The position numbers and the translations under genes were made by a program. A stretch of DNA of 51,506 bases, from assembly GCA_016932995.1 (NCBI GenBank), contig JAFGBU010000012.1, forward strand, positions 1 through 51,506. The letters run 5' to 3'. This DNA is from Desulfovibrionaceae bacterium. Its GTDB lineage: Bacteria; Desulfobacterota; Desulfovibrionia; Desulfovibrionales; Desulfovibrionaceae. This document shows, piece after piece, positions 31,974 through 51,457 of this stretch. The notes beneath the pieces are model-generated. The model did no database searches. It worked only from the letters and a program-made list of their open reading frames with translations, and was not told where the DNA came from. Every line of letters begins with the position of its first letter. Positions within the stretch are counted from its first letter, which is position 1.

Positions 31974-32076
31974 GTGCGCTTCCGCCCGCCGCGGGGCCCA
32001 AAGCCCCGGGCCGTTCAGGGTTTGTGAAGGAAAGAGACTATAGGAACAGGCCCTGCGCTTGGCAAGCTCCTTGTCC

Positions 32077-32125
32077 TGGACATGCTCGACTCGAACGGCT
32101 AATAAATACACCCTCCAAAGGGTGT
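32077..32125 (+). promoter_or_regulatory. Promoter with adjacent inverted repeat before the serine genes
   Basis: TGGACA (32077-32082), a 17-base spacer and TAATAA (32100-32105) form a good sigma-70 promoter. A perfect 7-bp inverted repeat, ACACCCT and AGGGTGT with a 4-base spacer (32108-32125), covers the expected transcription start. It could be an operator, or a hairpin at the 5' end of the transcript. Confidence 0.55.
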
Positions 32126-32167
32126 GAATACGTTGCCGCGCGCAGGCGACGAACCAGGGGGTCTATT

Positions 32168-33307
32168 ATGAGCATCAATGATTTCACCCCGTTGAAGCTG
32201 TTCATCACCGGGCCGACCTATATCCGCGAAGAGGTCCGGGAGGCCGGGACCCTGCCCGAGTTCGGGCACCGGGACAAGGAGAACGAGAAGCGCTTCAAGC
32301 CCATAATGGCCAACCTGAAGAAGCTGGCCAAGATAGACGACGGCTACGAGGTGGTGATCTTCAACGGCTCCGGGTCCACGGCCATGGAGGCCTCGATCCG
32401 CTCCCTGGTGGCCGGGGGCGAGACCGTGCTCAACGTGTCCGTGGGCGCGTTCGGCGACCTGTACCACAACATGGCCCTGGCCAACGGCAAGAACGCGGTC
32501 CAGCTCAAGTTCGGGCCGGGCCGGGCCATAGACTTGGCCGAGATGGACAGGGCCCTGCGGGAGCACCGGCCCCAGGTGGTCACCCTGACCCACAACGAGA
32601 CCTCGACCGGCGTGGTCAACGACATCGAGGCCGCTTGCGACCTGGCGCGCAAACACGGGGCCATGCCCCTGGTCGACGGGGTGAGCATCTTCGGCGGCGC
32701 GGACGTCAGGATCAGCCAGGCCCGGCCGGCCATGTACAGCACCTCGACCCAGAAGTCCCTGGGCCTGCCCGCGGGCTTCGGCATCGCCTTCATCGCGCCC
32801 GAGGCCGTGGAAAAGGCCGCCGGGGTGGCCGACCGCGGACACGCCTCGGACATCCTCAAGCAGCTCGACAGGGCGGCCAAGTTCCAGACCCTGACCACGC
32901 CCAACTGCACCCTGGCCAACCAGATGTGCGTCCAGCTCGACTACATCGTGAACCAGGAGGGCGTGGACAACAGGTTCAAGAGGCACGCCCTGATGCGGGA
33001 CATGGTCCGCGACTGGGTGGCCGGCCTGGACGGCTTCGAGCTCTTCGCCCAGGAGGGCCGCCGTTCGCCGACCCTGACCACGGTGCGCGCGCCCCAGGGC
33101 CTGGGCTCGGCCGGGCTCAAGGCGGTCAAGGAGCGCATGCGCGCCAGGGGCTATCTTTTCGACCCCGGCTACGGCAAGATCAACACGGCCCTGGAGAAGG
33201 GCGGCCAGAGGTGCGCGTTCCGCGTCGGGCACATGGGCGACATCACCCCGGACATGCTCCGGGACTATCTCTCGGACCTGGAAGAGGTCTTCACGACCAT
33301 CAAGTGA
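32168..33307 (+). CDS. Class V aminotransferase, probable phosphoserine aminotransferase
   Basis: 379 aa from ATG 32168, with AGGGGG 7 bases upstream. PLP-dependent class V fold: LFITGPTYIREEVREAG, GSGSTAMEASIRSLVAGGE, TLTHNETSTGVVNDIEAACD, LVDGVSIFGGADV and the Lys196 Schiff-base site STSTQKSLGLPAGF. The sequence is closer in style to alanine-glyoxylate/serine-glyoxylate transaminases than to E. coli SerC. Its gene ends 8 bases before serA, so it most likely supplies the phosphoserine aminotransferase step. A role in glyoxylate or sulfoacid metabolism is the alternative. Confidence 0.88.
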   Translation: MSINDFTPLKLFITGPTYIREEVREAGTLPEFGHRDKENEKRFKPIMANLKKLAKIDDGYEVVIFNGSGSTAMEASIRSLVAGGETVLNVSVGAFGDLYHNMALANGKNAVQLKFGPGRAIDLAEMDRALREHRPQVVTLTHNETSTGVVNDIEAACDLARKHGAMPLVDGVSIFGGADVRISQARPAMYSTSTQKSLGLPAGFGIAFIAPEAVEKAAGVADRGHASDILKQLDRAAKFQTLTTPNCTLANQMCVQLDYIVNQEGVDNRFKRHALMRDMVRDWVAGLDGFELFAQEGRRSPTLTTVRAPQGLGSAGLKAVKERMRARGYLFDPGYGKINTALEKGGQRCAFRVGHMGDITPDMLRDYLSDLEEVFTTIK

Positions 33308-33315
33308 GGGACGAC

Positions 33316-34506
33316 ATGAACAAGAGGATACTGGCCAACGACGGGCTCGTGCCCGAGGCCGTCAAGTACTTGCAGGAAGAGGGCTTTGTGGTCGAGACCG
33401 ACAAGCGCGACCACGACGACCTGGTGGGCGAGATCAGGGAGTTCGACGCGCTTCTGGTGCGCAGCGCGACCAAGGTCAGCCGCGAGATCATCGAGGCCGG
33501 GGCCGGGGACGGCGGGAAATTGAAGATCGTGGGCCGGGGCGGGGTCGGCGTGGACAACATCGACCTGGAGGCGGCCAAGGAGCTCGGGGTCATCGTCAAG
33601 TTCGCGCCCAACGGCAACACCAACGCCGCGGCCGAGCACGCCCTGGGGCTCATGTTCGCCGTGGCCCGCAACGTGCCCATGGCCCACGCCACGCTCAAGG
33701 CCGGGATTTGGCACAAGAAGCGCTTCCTGGGCCGGGAGCTGTTCGGCAAGACCCTGGGGATCATCGGCTGCGGCCGCATCGGCCAGTCCCTGGCGATCAA
33801 GGCCATCGGCATCGGCATGAAGGCCATCGGGTTCGACATCTACCGGAGCATCGACTCCAGCATCGAGTACCGGGACAGCGTCGAGGACGTGCTCAAGGAT
33901 TCGGATTTCGTCAGCCTGCACACCGGCGGGGACAAGGTCATCATCGGCGAGGCCGAGCTCAGGCTGATGAAGCCCGACGCCTTTCTGATCAACGCCTCGC
34001 GGGGCAAGAACGTGTCCGAGGACGCCCTGTACCAGGCCCTGAAAAAGGGCCAGATCAGGGGCGCGGCCCTGGACTGCTTCGAGAAGGAGCCCAAGCGCGA
34101 GGGCGATCCATTCGAGAGCAGGCTCAGGGAGCTGGACAACGTGGTTCTGAGCTCGCATCTGGGCGCGTCCACCAAGAACGCGGGCATCCGCACCGGGCTC
34201 GAGATCGCCGAGGTCGTGGCCAACTACCTGCGCCGCGGCGACTTCGGCAACTCGGTCAACGTGGGCCAGACCGTGGAGGAGGAGGGCCGGCAGATATACG
34301 CCATCTTCATCACCCACGAGGACAAGCCGGGCATGTTCGGCCGCTTCGGCACGGCCATGGGCGAGATGGGCGTGAACATCCGGGAGAACAACTCGCGCCG
34401 GCTCTCGGACGCGGTCCAGACCGTGTACGTCGTGCACCAGCCGCCGACCGAGGAGGTCAGGGAGCGCCTGGAGCGCATCGAGGGCGTGCGCCGGGTGAGC
34501 ATCTAG
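33316..34506 (+). CDS. serA: D-3-phosphoglycerate dehydrogenase
   Basis: 396 aa with GAGGGACGAC before the ATG at 33316. The catalytic and NAD-binding halves are clear: GRGGVGVDNIDLEAAKELGV, the Rossmann motif TLGIIGCGRIGQSLAIKA, INASRGKNVSEDALYQAL and the catalytic His in VVLSSHLGASTKN. Residues about 320-396 are an ACT domain (IYAIFITHEDKPGMFGRFGT, VNIRENNSRR), the usual site of serine feedback inhibition. It oxidises 3-phosphoglycerate to 3-phosphohydroxypyruvate, which the upstream aminotransferase converts to phosphoserine. A terminator follows directly. Confidence 0.94.
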   Translation: MNKRILANDGLVPEAVKYLQEEGFVVETDKRDHDDLVGEIREFDALLVRSATKVSREIIEAGAGDGGKLKIVGRGGVGVDNIDLEAAKELGVIVKFAPNGNTNAAAEHALGLMFAVARNVPMAHATLKAGIWHKKRFLGRELFGKTLGIIGCGRIGQSLAIKAIGIGMKAIGFDIYRSIDSSIEYRDSVEDVLKDSDFVSLHTGGDKVIIGEAELRLMKPDAFLINASRGKNVSEDALYQALKKGQIRGAALDCFEKEPKREGDPFESRLRELDNVVLSSHLGASTKNAGIRTGLEIAEVVANYLRRGDFGNSVNVGQTVEEEGRQIYAIFITHEDKPGMFGRFGTAMGEMGVNIRENNSRRLSDAVQTVYVVHQPPTEEVRERLERIEGVRRVSI

Positions 34507-47231: not shown

Positions 47232-49004
47232 TCAGGCGGCCCGGTGGCCGGGGCCGACCCGGGCCAGGCTGCGGTCCATCTCCCGGACCTTTTTCAAGAC
47301 CTTGCGGCTGATCTTCTTGAACTCGGACAGGTCCCTGAGCTCATAGCGGCGCTTGGCCTTGGTGAGCCCGGACAGGTCCACGGTCTCGTTGAACAGGTAG
47401 GGCAGGTAGAGCGGGTCCTGCTGGATGAAGGCCTGGGCCCGGTCCATGAGCGCGTGTATCTCGTTCTGGTTGGCGCCGACCTTCTTGAACAGCCTCTCCA
47501 GGCGTTTTTCCAGGCCGCGCAGGGCCGAGGTCCACAGGGCGCTCTTGGGCTCGAAGCTCAGCCGCGGCCTGGGTCGCCTGGCCTCGGCCAGGCGCTTCAT
47601 GAACCCCTCCAGGCTGCCCGGGACCGAGGACAACAGCCCCTTGCGCCGGGCCTCGGCCAGGTCCACCGCGGCCGCGCCCCTGATGTCCGCGCCCCCGCCG
47701 TAGAGGTTGTAGACCGGCAGGCGGTGTTTTGCGACGTCGTCCTCGAGCTCCCTCTTGGCCGTCAGGTACTGGATGCTGGTCATGACCTCCCGGCCCGCGC
47801 GGTTCTTGATCATGCGGTGCCGGCCGGGCTCGAACTGGACCTCGCTGGTGTAGGAGTGGTGGCCCTCGGCGTGGGTCACGCCCTGGTTCCAGGCGAAGTC
47901 CTGGCCGACCAGGAGCAGGTGGCTCACCCCGCACCACCTGAGGAAGCGGACCAGGGTCAGGCTGACGTTTCCGCCCGCGTCCATGACGAATTCGTTCTGG
48001 TTCATGGCGAAGGTGGCCATGCCGCCCACGGTCCACAGGGGCAGGGTGGGGCCGGGGTAGCGCTCGACCACCTCGGGGTTGACCTTGGTCGAGTAGATGA
48101 GCGGGACGTCCTTGGCCAGGTCCAGGTCCAGCCGGTCGTAGACCTTGAGCATGGAGTGGTCGTAGTCCAGGGCCAGGCAGAGGTCGGGGCTCAGGCCCGC
48201 GGCCCGGGCCGCGGGCACGGTCTGCAGGGCGCAGGCGTACAGGGCGTAGCCCGGGTTCTTTGCCAGGGCCGGCCCGTTGTCTCTGAGCGAGGGCCCGGCC
48301 CCGATGATCACCGCGCCCAGGCCCAGGGCCGAGTCCCTGAGGGGCAGGAGGCTGCCGTCGGCCTGGGCCCGGTGGAAGTTCTTCAGCTCGTTGCCGACCA
48401 TGGTGTCCTGGCGGAAGCGCAGGGTGATGAGCTCGACGTGGAAGTTTTCGATCCTGCGTCTCACGGCGTGGGCCCATTGGGCGTACTCGGGCCCCATCTG
48501 CTGGCTGGGCAGGTCGCCGCGCAGATGCACCCTGCCGTAGACCAGCTGCAGGTCCAGGCACCTGACGACCTTGGTGATGTATTCCTCGTCCGGCAGGGCG
48601 AAGTGCAGCTTCTTGTTGGCGAAAAACGGCCGGTAGTCGGTCTGGCCGAGGCAGGCCAGGACCAGCTCGGGCCTGGGCTCGATGACTATGACCTTGTGGC
48701 TGTCCGGGGTGTTGACCAGGACGTGGTTGACCCCGTAGCCGAGGTTGCAGCCTATGATGATCGTCGCGCTGGTGTGCGCCTGGTCCTCGGGCGTCCACTT
48801 CGAGTACACCGGGCCCGGGGGCACGGCCTCGAACAGGCCCTGGCCCGAGGGCATGCGCCAGTCGATGAGCCCGAGCCGGTTCTGGAAGATGTTCTGGGCC
48901 AGGGCCGCCCGGTCGATGTCCCGGTTGGACAGCCAGCGGTAGAAATCCGGGCAGTAGGTCTCCAGGGCCTCGATGTTGGCCTTGAGAAAGGGGTAGCTCT
49001 TCAT
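47232..49004 (-). CDS. DUF115 (Maf/MptE-like) protein, possible motility-associated glycosylation factor
   Basis: 590 aa from ATG 49004 with AAGGATCGAGC before it; the frame extends to 49037. The central domain ALGLGAVIIGAGPSLRDNGP, LSPDLCLALDYDHSMLKVYD, TVGGMATFAMNQNEFVMDAG, LRWCGVSHLLLVGQDFAWNQ and GVTHAEGHHSYTSEV matches DUF115/MptE-like proteins. In flagellated bacteria these act as Maf factors in nonulosonic acid glycosylation of flagellin; in archaea MptE is a pterin pyrophosphokinase. No flagellin or sialic-acid gene is in the window, so the role is only suggested. The N-terminal domain is variable in the family. Confidence 0.8.
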   Translation of the reverse strand: MKSYPFLKANIEALETYCPDFYRWLSNRDIDRAALAQNIFQNRLGLIDWRMPSGQGLFEAVPPGPVYSKWTPEDQAHTSATIIIGCNLGYGVNHVLVNTPDSHKVIVIEPRPELVLACLGQTDYRPFFANKKLHFALPDEEYITKVVRCLDLQLVYGRVHLRGDLPSQQMGPEYAQWAHAVRRRIENFHVELITLRFRQDTMVGNELKNFHRAQADGSLLPLRDSALGLGAVIIGAGPSLRDNGPALAKNPGYALYACALQTVPAARAAGLSPDLCLALDYDHSMLKVYDRLDLDLAKDVPLIYSTKVNPEVVERYPGPTLPLWTVGGMATFAMNQNEFVMDAGGNVSLTLVRFLRWCGVSHLLLVGQDFAWNQGVTHAEGHHSYTSEVQFEPGRHRMIKNRAGREVMTSIQYLTAKRELEDDVAKHRLPVYNLYGGGADIRGAAAVDLAEARRKGLLSSVPGSLEGFMKRLAEARRPRPRLSFEPKSALWTSALRGLEKRLERLFKKVGANQNEIHALMDRAQAFIQQDPLYLPYLFNETVDLSGLTKAKRRYELRDLSEFKKISRKVLKKVREMDRSLARVGPGHRAA

Positions 49005-49125
49005 GCTCGATCCTTGGTTGCTGTGCCCGTCATGCAATACGGATGCCGGTTGCGAAGGGGGAGTTTTTGGCCTACATCATTGCCAGCCCGGCCCCTGCGG
49101 CCGGCGGTGTCAATCGGGGAAGCAC

Positions 49126-51420
49126 ATGGCGCATCGAGATGTTTTGGGCCTGGTCGGAGGCACGCCCCTGGTGGAGATCAGGCGGCTCAACCCGCGCCCG
49201 GGCGTCAAGATTTTGGCCAAGCTCGAGTCCTTCAACCCGGGCGGGTCGATCAAGGACCGCGTCGCCCTGGCCATGGTCGAGGCGGCCGAGCAGAGCGGCG
49301 AGCTCACCCCGGACAAGACGGTCATCGAGGCCACCTCGGGCAACACCGGCATCGGCCTGGCCATGGTCTGCGCGGTGCGCGGCTACAGGTGCCGGCTGAT
49401 AATGTCCGAGAACGCCTCCGAGGAGCGCAAGATGATCCTGCGCGCCTACGGGGCCGAGATCCGGCTCACGCCCGGCCGCATGGGCACGGACGGGGCCATA
49501 GAGGAGGCCTACCGCCTGGCCCGCGAGGCCCCGGACAAGTATGTGCTCATGGACCAGTACAACAACCCGGCCTGCGTCCAGGCCCACTATCTGGGCACGG
49601 CCCGGGAGATATGGGACCAGACCGGGGGCGCCTTGACCCACGCCGTGGCGGCCATGGGCACCACGGGCACGGCCATGGGCCTGGCCAAGGGGCTCAAGGA
49701 GCGGGGTCAGGTCTTTGTGGCCGGGGTGGAGCCCTACGCCGGGCACGGGATCCAGGGGCTCAAGAACATGCACGAGTCCTATCCCCCGGGCATCTATGAC
49801 AAGTCGGCCCTGGACGCGGTCCTGCGCGTGGACGACCAGGAGGCCTTCGAGCTCTGCCGCAGGCTGGCCCGCGAGGAGGGCCTGCTCGCGGGCATGAGCT
49901 CGGGCGCGGCCCTGGCCGGGGCCCTCAAGCTGGCCTCGGACCTGGATACCGGCCTGGTGGTGGTCATATTTCCGGACAGCGGGGAGCGGTATCTGTCCAC
50001 GTCCCTGTTCGCGGCCAAGGACGAGCGCGGGGTGCGCCTGTTCAGCGTGGACAAGGCCGCCAGGACCGGCCTGTCCCCGGGCCCTGCGGGCGCGGGCCTG
50101 TACACCGTGGGCCCGGGCCTGGACGACCCCGGCGATCTGGGGGCCTGGAGGCGGGTCGCGCTCCTGGACGTTTTGGCCCGCTACCGGGAGTCCAGGGGCC
50201 TGGCCAGCGAGGTCGCGGTGGGCCTGGCCGACCTGGACGACCGCGCCATTTCCGCGGCCCGCCGGGCCCAGCGGCCCAGGGCGGAGTTCGTGAGCGACGC
50301 GCTCGCGGCGATCAGGCGGCGGGCAGGGCTCTTGGGGCTCAGGCCCCGGACCAGGTTCGCCCTGGCCTCGGAGAGCGTGTTCACCTGCCTGGAGCTGTGC
50401 CGAAAGCTCCTGGCCAAGGGCCTGGCCTACGAGAAGCTCCGGAGCGTGTACTTCGACGTGCTCAGGGACGCCCGGTACGGCGAGATCCGGCACATGGACG
50501 TGGACAAGATCAGCCTGGGCAAGACCGTTGACCTGGCCGCCTATGTCAAGGACAACCCCCGGGACTTCACCCTGCTCAAGAGGGCCAGCCTCCTGGACCT
50601 CAAGCAGGGCGAGGTCCTGGACACCGAGTGGGGCAACGTCAGGCCGAGCTGGTTCCTGCAGCTGGCCGCGGCCGGCCTGGACGCCCTGCCCGAGATCAGC
50701 CTGTTTCTGGCCGCCGAGGCCCATCAGTTCCCGCACCTGGAGAACCTGCGGGCCATCTGGTCCTCGGCCGGGACCGAGGTCTCGGCCTGGCTCGTGGGCC
50801 AGCCGGTGACCGGCGGCGAGAATCTGGACATCGACCGGGCCCTGGAGGCGGCCGAGTCCGGCCTGGCCCTGCGCATGTGGCTGCTCTCGGCCCACTACCG
50901 CAAGCCCCTGGCGGCCGGGGACCAGGGCCTGGCCATGTGGGCCCGCAACTGGCGCAGGCTTCAGGACCTGGCCGGGGCCCTGGGACTGGCCGCGGGCGCT
51001 CCGGGCGGGGAAATCCCGGCCGAGGTCGAGCAGGCCGTGTTCGACCTCAAGACCGGGCTTGCCCAGTCCGTGGAGGACGACCTCGGGCTGCACCACTTCT
51101 GGCCCGTGCTCTTCGGGTTCGCCAAGAAGGTCAACGCCTGGCTGGGCCCGGGCCGGCTGTCCGGGGCCGCGGCCAAGACCTGCCTCAAGCAGCTCCAGGC
51201 CGTTGACCGGGTCCTGGTCTTTCTGGACCCGGACGTCTTGCCCGTGCCCGGGGACGATTTGCCCCAAGAGGTCCGGGCCATGGTCCAGGACCGGGAGCGG
51301 GCCAGGCTGGCCAGGGACTTCGCGGCCTCGGACGGCCTGAGGGAGCGGATTTCAAAGGCCGGGTTCCGGGTCGAGGACTCCCCGGCCGGGCCCAGGGTCT
51401 ACCGGGTCCAGGGGCCTTAG
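49126..51420 (+). CDS. O-acetylserine sulfhydrylase fused to a degenerate cysteinyl-tRNA-synthetase-like domain
   Basis: 764 aa from ATG 49126 with GGGGAAGC before it. Residues 1-300 are cysteine synthase: VGGTPLVEIRRLNP, SFNPGGSIKDRVALAM (PLP Lys43), EATSGNTGIGLAMVCAVRGY and GTTGTAMGLAKGL. Residues about 305-764 align by eye with CysRS: LYTVGP (325-330), LADLDDRA, RPSWFLQL (506-513), FPHLEN (535-540), RMWLLSAHYRKPL and the DALR-type end ARLARDFAASDGLRERISK. The HIGH motif is DLGA, KMSKS is lost (VTGGENLD at 561-568) and the zinc Cys/His are gone, so this half cannot charge tRNA. It may regulate or scaffold cysteine supply. The terminal inverted repeat follows 6 bases on. Confidence 0.85.
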   Translation: MAHRDVLGLVGGTPLVEIRRLNPRPGVKILAKLESFNPGGSIKDRVALAMVEAAEQSGELTPDKTVIEATSGNTGIGLAMVCAVRGYRCRLIMSENASEERKMILRAYGAEIRLTPGRMGTDGAIEEAYRLAREAPDKYVLMDQYNNPACVQAHYLGTAREIWDQTGGALTHAVAAMGTTGTAMGLAKGLKERGQVFVAGVEPYAGHGIQGLKNMHESYPPGIYDKSALDAVLRVDDQEAFELCRRLAREEGLLAGMSSGAALAGALKLASDLDTGLVVVIFPDSGERYLSTSLFAAKDERGVRLFSVDKAARTGLSPGPAGAGLYTVGPGLDDPGDLGAWRRVALLDVLARYRESRGLASEVAVGLADLDDRAISAARRAQRPRAEFVSDALAAIRRRAGLLGLRPRTRFALASESVFTCLELCRKLLAKGLAYEKLRSVYFDVLRDARYGEIRHMDVDKISLGKTVDLAAYVKDNPRDFTLLKRASLLDLKQGEVLDTEWGNVRPSWFLQLAAAGLDALPEISLFLAAEAHQFPHLENLRAIWSSAGTEVSAWLVGQPVTGGENLDIDRALEAAESGLALRMWLLSAHYRKPLAAGDQGLAMWARNWRRLQDLAGALGLAAGAPGGEIPAEVEQAVFDLKTGLAQSVEDDLGLHHFWPVLFGFAKKVNAWLGPGRLSGAAAKTCLKQLQAVDRVLVFLDPDVLPVPGDDLPQEVRAMVQDRERARLARDFAASDGLRERISKAGFRVEDSPAGPRVYRVQGP

Positions 51421-51426
51421 CAGAAT

Positions 51427-51457
51427 GTTGAAAAAGTCCGTCCTGGACTTTTTCAAC
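51427..51457 (+). terminator. Perfect 13-bp inverted repeat after the cysteine synthase gene
   Basis: GTTGAAAAAGTCC (51427-51439), a 5-base loop and its exact complement (51445-51457) start 6 bases after the stop. The T-run in the right arm makes an intrinsic terminator possible, but the run lies inside the stem. It could also be a dispersed repeat. Confidence 0.6.

Follow-up and report, generated by a model that had tools for sequence, protein, structure and literature searches.

The gene at positions 49126–51420 on the forward strand of a 51,506-nt stretch of DNA from a Desulfovibrionaceae bacterium (assembly GCA_016932995.1, JAFGBU010000012.1; hereafter the window) joins a cysteine synthase to a long C-terminal tail resembling cysteinyl-tRNA synthetase (CysRS), which raises the question of what such a tail does on a biosynthetic enzyme. 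This stretch makes up all of contig 16 in an assembly of 2.48 Mb, with 49 contigs and 99.5% completeness. An annotation produced from the letters alone (the original prediction) had described a complete cysteine synthase followed by a half in CysRS order, and the open frame, the Pfam PALP match and the CysRS profile matches reported below agree with it. By its sequence, the protein is a complete cysteine synthase with a C-terminal pseudo-cysteinyl-tRNA synthetase. We propose, with a rough probability of 0.45, that this tail would be a tRNA-Cys-binding pseudo-synthetase that tunes the attached cysteine synthase to translational demand.

Results

The gene is one uninterrupted frame of 764 aa plus the stop codon, and its start matches those of its homologues. 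Conservation was surveyed in 108 distinct fused proteins, to which the order of the window (Desulfovibrionales) and the rest of the phylum contribute 54 each, against 32 true CysRS, namely those of E. coli, of the bacterium itself and of the 30 best-scoring loci of the phylum, a choice that makes this reference set lean to well-kept sequences. Partial fusions were kept outside the 108, and two rows were dropped, L045 (identical to L046) and L033 (a copy of the window). The synthase half (residues 1–300; 49126–50025, +) was delimited by Pfam and NCBIfam domain matches and by its invariant active-site residues: PALP covers residues 8–284 (E 5.8e-74), the pyridoxal phosphate (PLP) lysine, the TSGNTG and GTTGT loops and the PLP-N serine are all present, and K43, N73, T74, G178, K213, N214 and S258 are invariant in the 108 fusions. 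In having a complete PALP fold with its active-site residues, the protein resembles the CysM/CysK cysteine synthases, among them 3dki, a CysM that depends on O-phosphoserine. The fusion differs from them by the attached tail and by its profile scores, which pass the cut-off of the cysKM subfamily (TIGR01136, 351 bits for a cut-off of 344) but miss both the cysK and cysM equivalog cut-offs of NCBIfam. VIA Z values were 43.3 against cysteine synthase B 2v03, in which R210 aligns opposite K213 of the fusion, and 43.2 against 3dki; since these are tied, the structural ranking does not tell the substrate.

A linker (residues ~301–323; 50026–50094, +), placed from the Pfam domain limits and the AlphaFold model, leads to the tail, for which the original prediction had expected CysRS homology beyond residue 305. 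Strong matches were obtained there. The catalytic domain (residues 324–595; 50095–50910, +), defined by profile, PDB and structural matches, is recognized as tRNA-synt_1e by Pfam over exactly these residues (E 3.9e-23), and a phmmer search of the PDB retrieved the CysRS 1li5 (E 5.6e-31, spanning residues 17–452 of the 460-aa half). TIGR00435, the NCBIfam cysS family, extends over residues 323–759 (E 5.3e-35) at 121 bits, under its equivalog cut-off of 340, while the C-terminal anticodon-binding domain (CysS_C, residues 710–753; 51253–51384, +) scores 21 bits (E 3.7e-4), just below the Pfam cut-off of 23, with a fold match reaching residue 761. The AlphaFold2 model, computed from alignment A1 (70 of the 108 fusions after an 80% identity filter; L050 was left out of A1 and of the trees), has a predicted local distance difference test (pLDDT) of 92.2 and a predicted template modelling score (pTM) of 0.83. 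Foldseek matched it to the CysRS:tRNA-Cys complex 1u0b_B (E 1.2e-26), and VIA-align superposed residues 302–761 on residues 1–461 of that chain (Z 41.5, root-mean-square deviation, rmsd, 6.2) and residues 301–707 on 8qhp_A (Z 42.1, rmsd 2.2 over 390 residues). As modeled, the tail is a full-length class I CysRS fold.

Alignment to the E. coli sites bears out the predicted loss of the charging motifs, HIGH being reduced to DLGA (residues 337–340; 50134–50145, +) and KMSKS being deleted (region of residues 558–568; 50797–50829, +, from the alignment of fusions). The zinc ligands had also been given as lost, which holds for three of the four, C28, C209 and E238 being replaced by V328 (50107–50109, +), L513 (50662–50664, +) and L541 (50746–50748, +), and fails for H234, kept as H537 (50734–50736, +) and a histidine in all 108 fusions. 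Within the order, none of the 54 fusions has restored the first His of HIGH, the Lys of KMSKS (deleted in 49), C28, C209 or E238, whereas elsewhere in the phylum these are kept in 21, 31, 32, 43 and 30 of 54, respectively; H234 is present in 54 of 54 on both sides. HxGH together with K.S occurs in no fusion, while HxGH and KMSKS occur in 32/32 true CysRS. All four zinc ligands persist in 24 of the 108, all distant relatives, and ten of these also have HxG and KMS. These ten members, with HLGL-type, KMSRS-type and zinc motifs, are what speaks for a tail that is still an active ligase with altered motifs, joining cysteine and ATP onto another acceptor in the manner of MshC. The deletion of KMSKS in 49/54 and the loss of the first His of HIGH in 54/54 members of the order, added to the absence of any member combining HxGH with K.S, make such a ligase very improbable.

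The 24 zinc-intact proteins bear equally on a tail that, at its origin and still in some lineages, would sense cysteine or Cys-AMP through the zinc pocket and inhibit the synthase by feedback, for which histidine acting through HisZ, as described in PMC9437257, sets a precedent. Cysteine sensing is possible in those distant relatives, but hardly as a property common to all fusions, and in the order of the window the pocket is gone (0/54 with C28, C209 or E238), so that we consider this explanation improbable. The original prediction had inferred selection for binding of tRNA or of a Cys-AMP-like ligand; the second part is unlikely in the clade of the window because the pocket for zinc and cysteine has disappeared along with the ATP signatures, and the first is favored by the anticodon-binding domain.

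In E. coli CysRS, R427, D436 and W432 contact G34 of tRNA-Cys and R423 belongs to a water network, according to the contacts described in PMC12684709. Their counterparts in the window protein are R723, R727, F732 and D736 (51292–51333, +, by alignment), the phenylalanine being also found at position 432 in 10 of the 32 true CysRS. Across the 108 fusions, R423 and D436 are universal and position 432 is always aromatic, while R427 is kept in 101, the remainder having K or Q. Among 20 loci with partial or oddly matched members, 13 were opened: the anticodon stretch is present in six and carries the motif in 6/6, in two cases beyond a frame break, and the other seven break off short of it, at or close to the end of their contig. 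Considering the sites invariant in true CysRS, the fusions of the order have kept 6 of 9 in the anticodon domain versus 13 of 67 in stretches 1–115 plus 201–310 (Fisher p 0.006; the connective peptide, CP, stretch with 11/21 kept and the helical stretch with 0/5 kept were left out of this test, and the tRNA contacts compared are those of the anticodon). From these residues, tRNA-Cys binding by the tail appears likely. The same retained readers would also fit a tail that delivers fresh cysteine, or the synthase itself, to the site of translation, tRNA-Cys and the true CysRS being its partners in a transsulfursome-like particle whose benefit is local supply, and the tRNA-dependent SepRS/SepCysS route, as presented in PMC5424206, ties cysteine synthesis to tRNA-Cys elsewhere. 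However, the charging signatures are absent, contact with CysRS is without evidence and free diffusion of cysteine would usually be enough; we regard local supply as rather implausible.

A further explanation is a structural or oligomerization module that binds no tRNA, stabilizing the synthase or placing it near other proteins, in which the anticodon residues simply hold a small domain together. Eight residues, P330, R343, S440, Y473, R486, L492, K493 and G495, are nearly invariant in the fusions and not in true CysRS; six of them lie in the CP/insert region and none in the anticodon domain, as expected for a protein–protein or interdomain interface, and the CP region has an entropy ratio to true CysRS of 0.92. 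The failure to find tRNA-Cys genes linked to the fusion in 126 loci, described below, would also agree with it. Against this module, the kept G34 contacts R423, R427, W432 and D436 are hard to explain through scaffolding alone, all the more as many sites invariant in true CysRS have been lost elsewhere in the same fold. On balance, we hold it to be unlikely, although it deserves serious attention.

The fusion is not a peculiarity of this genome. At E 1e-85, matches were obtained in 158 of 297 genomes of the order, the weakest being a frameshifted fusion (G239) and a few, such as G258, having a contig that stops short of the tail, and in 235 of 395 genomes of the phylum. The fusion itself was counted at E 1e-115 or better in 156/395 phylum genomes, including one (G388) whose contig stops at residue 344, the remaining 79 matches (E 1e-99 or worse) being classed as unfused synthases by score alone. 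The expectation that other sulfate reducers carry similar fusions was borne out by 18 close relatives from a genome-contig scan, those named to genus or family being Desulfovibrio, Humidesulfovibrio, Desulfocurvus, Desulfohalobiaceae and Desulfonatronaceae, of Desulfovibrionales. This phylum-wide occurrence rules out a local or recent fusion; no plasmid match was obtained at 1e-60. In two members, L174 (G337) and L170 (G151), the match shifts frame inside the CysRS-like half, by sequencing error or by a real frameshift.

The synthase tree was built from 47 of the 108 fusions, and the CysRS tree from the same 47 together with 16 of the 32 true CysRS. In the latter, a quick unrooted tree, fused and true CysRS halves fell into separate groups with a Shimodaira–Hasegawa-like approximate likelihood ratio test (SH-aLRT) support of 100, and a FastTree run gave the same split. 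Given this separation, a single origin of the fusion is the simplest reading of the sequences. The synthase-half tree unites the order of the window (support 99) and requires six changes of the zinc-intact state, three of them forced by starred branches, from which it follows that separate lineages probably lost the charging and zinc signatures independently and yet kept the anticodon readers; a zinc state that has changed repeatedly also argues against cysteine sensing as the common function. For 24 independent close pairs, the median ratios of nonsynonymous to synonymous substitution rates (dN/dS) were 0.08 in the synthase half, 0.15 in the catalytic region and 0.21 in the helical plus anticodon region, all below 1, which indicates at the sequence level that both halves are under purifying selection and that the tail is not debris. 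With 108 distinct open proteins from different genomes besides, a pseudogene is ruled out.

The original prediction also expected a separate intact cysS, and one is present. A search of the bacterium's own assembly with the whole protein (E 0.001) returned three places, namely the fusion, a separate CysRS and a TrpB-like enzyme, the last named by reading its sequence. The separate CysRS is 29% identical to the tail, with visible HVGH, KMSKS and zinc-ligand motifs. As the other two matches are CysRS and TrpB-like, no cysteine synthase besides the fusion was found in this assembly. Since CysRS scores above its curated cut-off in 378/395 phylum genomes, the fusion does not generally replace it.

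CysE was not found in the bacterium's own genome at E 1e-25, the best CysE profile match reaching 38 bits. At the same threshold, it occurs in 79/156 genomes with the fusion versus 187/239 without it (Fisher p 1.6e-8, uncorrected for kinship). In the five fusion genomes with listed coordinates for both CysE and an unfused synthase (G005:C10, G007:C2, G016:C3, G040:C57 and G087:C1), no more than ~0.5 kb separates the two genes in every case. This placement of CysE beside a second, unfused synthase suggests two separate cysteine routes per cell. Because CysE is rarer in fusion genomes and adjoins the unfused synthase in 5/5, the fusion seems, from gene content, to work without a CysE partner.

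More tentatively, the fusion synthase may accept O-phosphoserine. Enzymes using this acceptor usually have Tyr where those using O-acetylserine have Phe, as stated in PMC12800425. When this marker is located in the fusions through their DQ[FY] motif, without aligning the sequences of that study, the window protein has Tyr (Y145). In the 67 fusions scored for CysE, however, the marker showed no link with the absence of CysE, Tyr being found in six with CysE and two without and Phe in 28 with and 31 without (p 0.26, in the opposite direction). As Tyr does not follow CysE absence, it was rejected as support, leaving CysE absence and the invariant K213 to point to O-phosphoserine. Phosphoserine is plausibly made, as two adjoining genes of the window encode a class V aminotransferase (32024–33307, +; closest in NCBIfam to the PhnW/BhcA type, with a weak match to serC_3) and, directly 3' of it, a phosphoglycerate dehydrogenase with an ACT domain (33325–34506, +). 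The two probably serve together in serine/phosphoserine synthesis, the SerC being of a non-standard kind.

The surroundings of the gene vary. Flanking open reading frames clustered over 39 loci (L090 and the window excepted) revealed no conserved operon; the commonest neighbor, a MurJ-like flippase read from sequence, occurs at 6/39 loci and is followed by two kinds at five loci each. One of these two kinds is an RlmB-like rRNA methyltransferase, also read from sequence, which lies near the fusion at the phylum loci L111, L081, L086, L107 and L114. In other bacteria, such a gene often adjoins ordinary cysS, and this neighbor is possibly a trace of the origin of the tail. tRNA genes were found at 17 of 126 loci with flanks of < 1.5 to ~5 kb, some places being counted twice because they occur in two collections, and none of these genes is tRNA-Cys; an Rfam scan of eight loci gave one tRNA, a tRNA-Met according to ARAGORN. 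In the window, the divergent neighbor (47232–49037, −) matches MptE-like (PF01973) and, below cut-off, the N-terminal domain of Maf flagellar glycosyltransferases. Just 3' of the stop codon, an inverted repeat whose 13-bp arms pair perfectly around a 5-base loop, terminator-like and read by eye (51427–51457, +), lies near the contig end, which falls 86 bases beyond the end of the fusion gene.

Discussion

By the sequence comparisons above, the fusion is real, old and widespread, and its tail is without signatures yet under selection. We infer that tRNA-gated control is the best single mechanism. The tail would bind tRNA-Cys through its GCA anticodon yet would be unable to charge it; occupancy by tRNA, perhaps uncharged versus charged and perhaps in competition with the true CysRS, would alter the activity or assembly of the synthase, possibly across a new interface involving the eight fusion-specific residues, and cysteine output would thereby follow translational demand. 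Such a demand gauge is the most natural reading because the set of anticodon readers is common to all members examined. The original prediction had suggested that the domain may sense tRNA-Cys or tune cysteine production: sensing survives as the best idea, through these kept readers, while tuning is a hypothesis.

Several observations weigh against the demand gauge. The tail would have to share tRNA-Cys with an intact CysRS. The C-terminus, earlier described as well kept and DALR-like, deserves that description for its anticodon-contact residues and not as a whole: over its full extent the anticodon domain varies to about the degree seen in true CysRS (entropy ratio 0.95), and of the positions that never differ among true CysRS, W458 is found in 0/54 fusions of the order and A435 and L442 in 24% and 35% of them. 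R423, D436, R439 and D451 could instead be retained for folding. To this are added the faster change of the anticodon region than of the synthase half, seen in the dN/dS medians, and the lack of both a conserved operon and tRNA-Cys linkage in the loci described above.

A broader possibility is that the fusions form a phylum-wide class of enzymes gated directly by tRNA, in which the tail reports the charging state of tRNA-Cys and replaces CysE-based feedback. This would be the one function left to the tail, and its trace would be that catalytic and zinc sites were lost again and again while the readers persisted; we advance this broader version only tentatively and think it somewhat doubtful.

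Known systems help to situate the demand gauge. HisZ, an inactive paralogue of HisRS, resembles the tail in being a bacterial relative of an aminoacyl-tRNA synthetase linked to an enzyme that helps to make the corresponding amino acid, and the fusion likewise shows lost aminoacylation signatures, a true synthetase elsewhere and a physical tie to such an enzyme. HisZ belongs to class II. It is a separate subunit that mediates inhibition by histidine, whereas the fusion has a class I fold attached to the last step and has kept its anticodon domain; because the cysteine pocket is lost, the amino acid is hardly the ligand of the tail in the clade of the window. HisZ is described as having no adenylation activity and as the regulatory subunit of ATP phosphoribosyltransferase HisG (PMC9437257). 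Gcn2, reported to be activated by uncharged tRNA (PMC4335047), resembles the fusion in joining a synthetase-like (HisRS-like) domain to an enzyme, but it is a eukaryotic kinase and its response is translational control and not direct control of an amino-acid synthase. HisZ and Gcn2 show that both parts of the demand-gauge idea occur in nature.

Relatives of CysRS itself differ in other ways. The tail shares with true CysRS (TIGR00435) the full-length fold and the G34-reading residues, but it has neither HIGH nor KMSKS, retains one of four zinc ligands and belongs to a separate group in the tree. The mycothiol cysteine ligase MshC and the CysRS* of some Desulfobacterales are CysRS paralogues that are both described as catalytic in PMC9437257, where CysRS* is presented as being without the anticodon-binding domain. 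CysRS*, which inserts Cys at UGA, keeps catalysis, and the fusion is the reverse, with signatures lost and anticodon domain kept; unlike MshC, it has lost the CysRS catalytic motifs, and the MshC structure 8hfm gave a weak match to residues 4–216 of the tail (E 0.021). No description of this fusion was found in the open-licence literature.

The minimal result, that the one cysteine synthase found in this assembly bears a conserved CysRS without catalytic signatures, is already a reason not to annotate such tails as synthetases and provides a clean test case. If the demand gauge is true, bacteria of a large, sulfide-rich phylum would use tRNA, acting on a protein, to keep cysteine synthesis in step with translation, a task generally credited to RNA switches or amino-acid feedback, and cysteine and the class I fold would join the short list of metabolism-controlling pseudo-synthetases. 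It could also explain how genomes that carry the fusion and have no recognizable CysE keep their cysteine in check.

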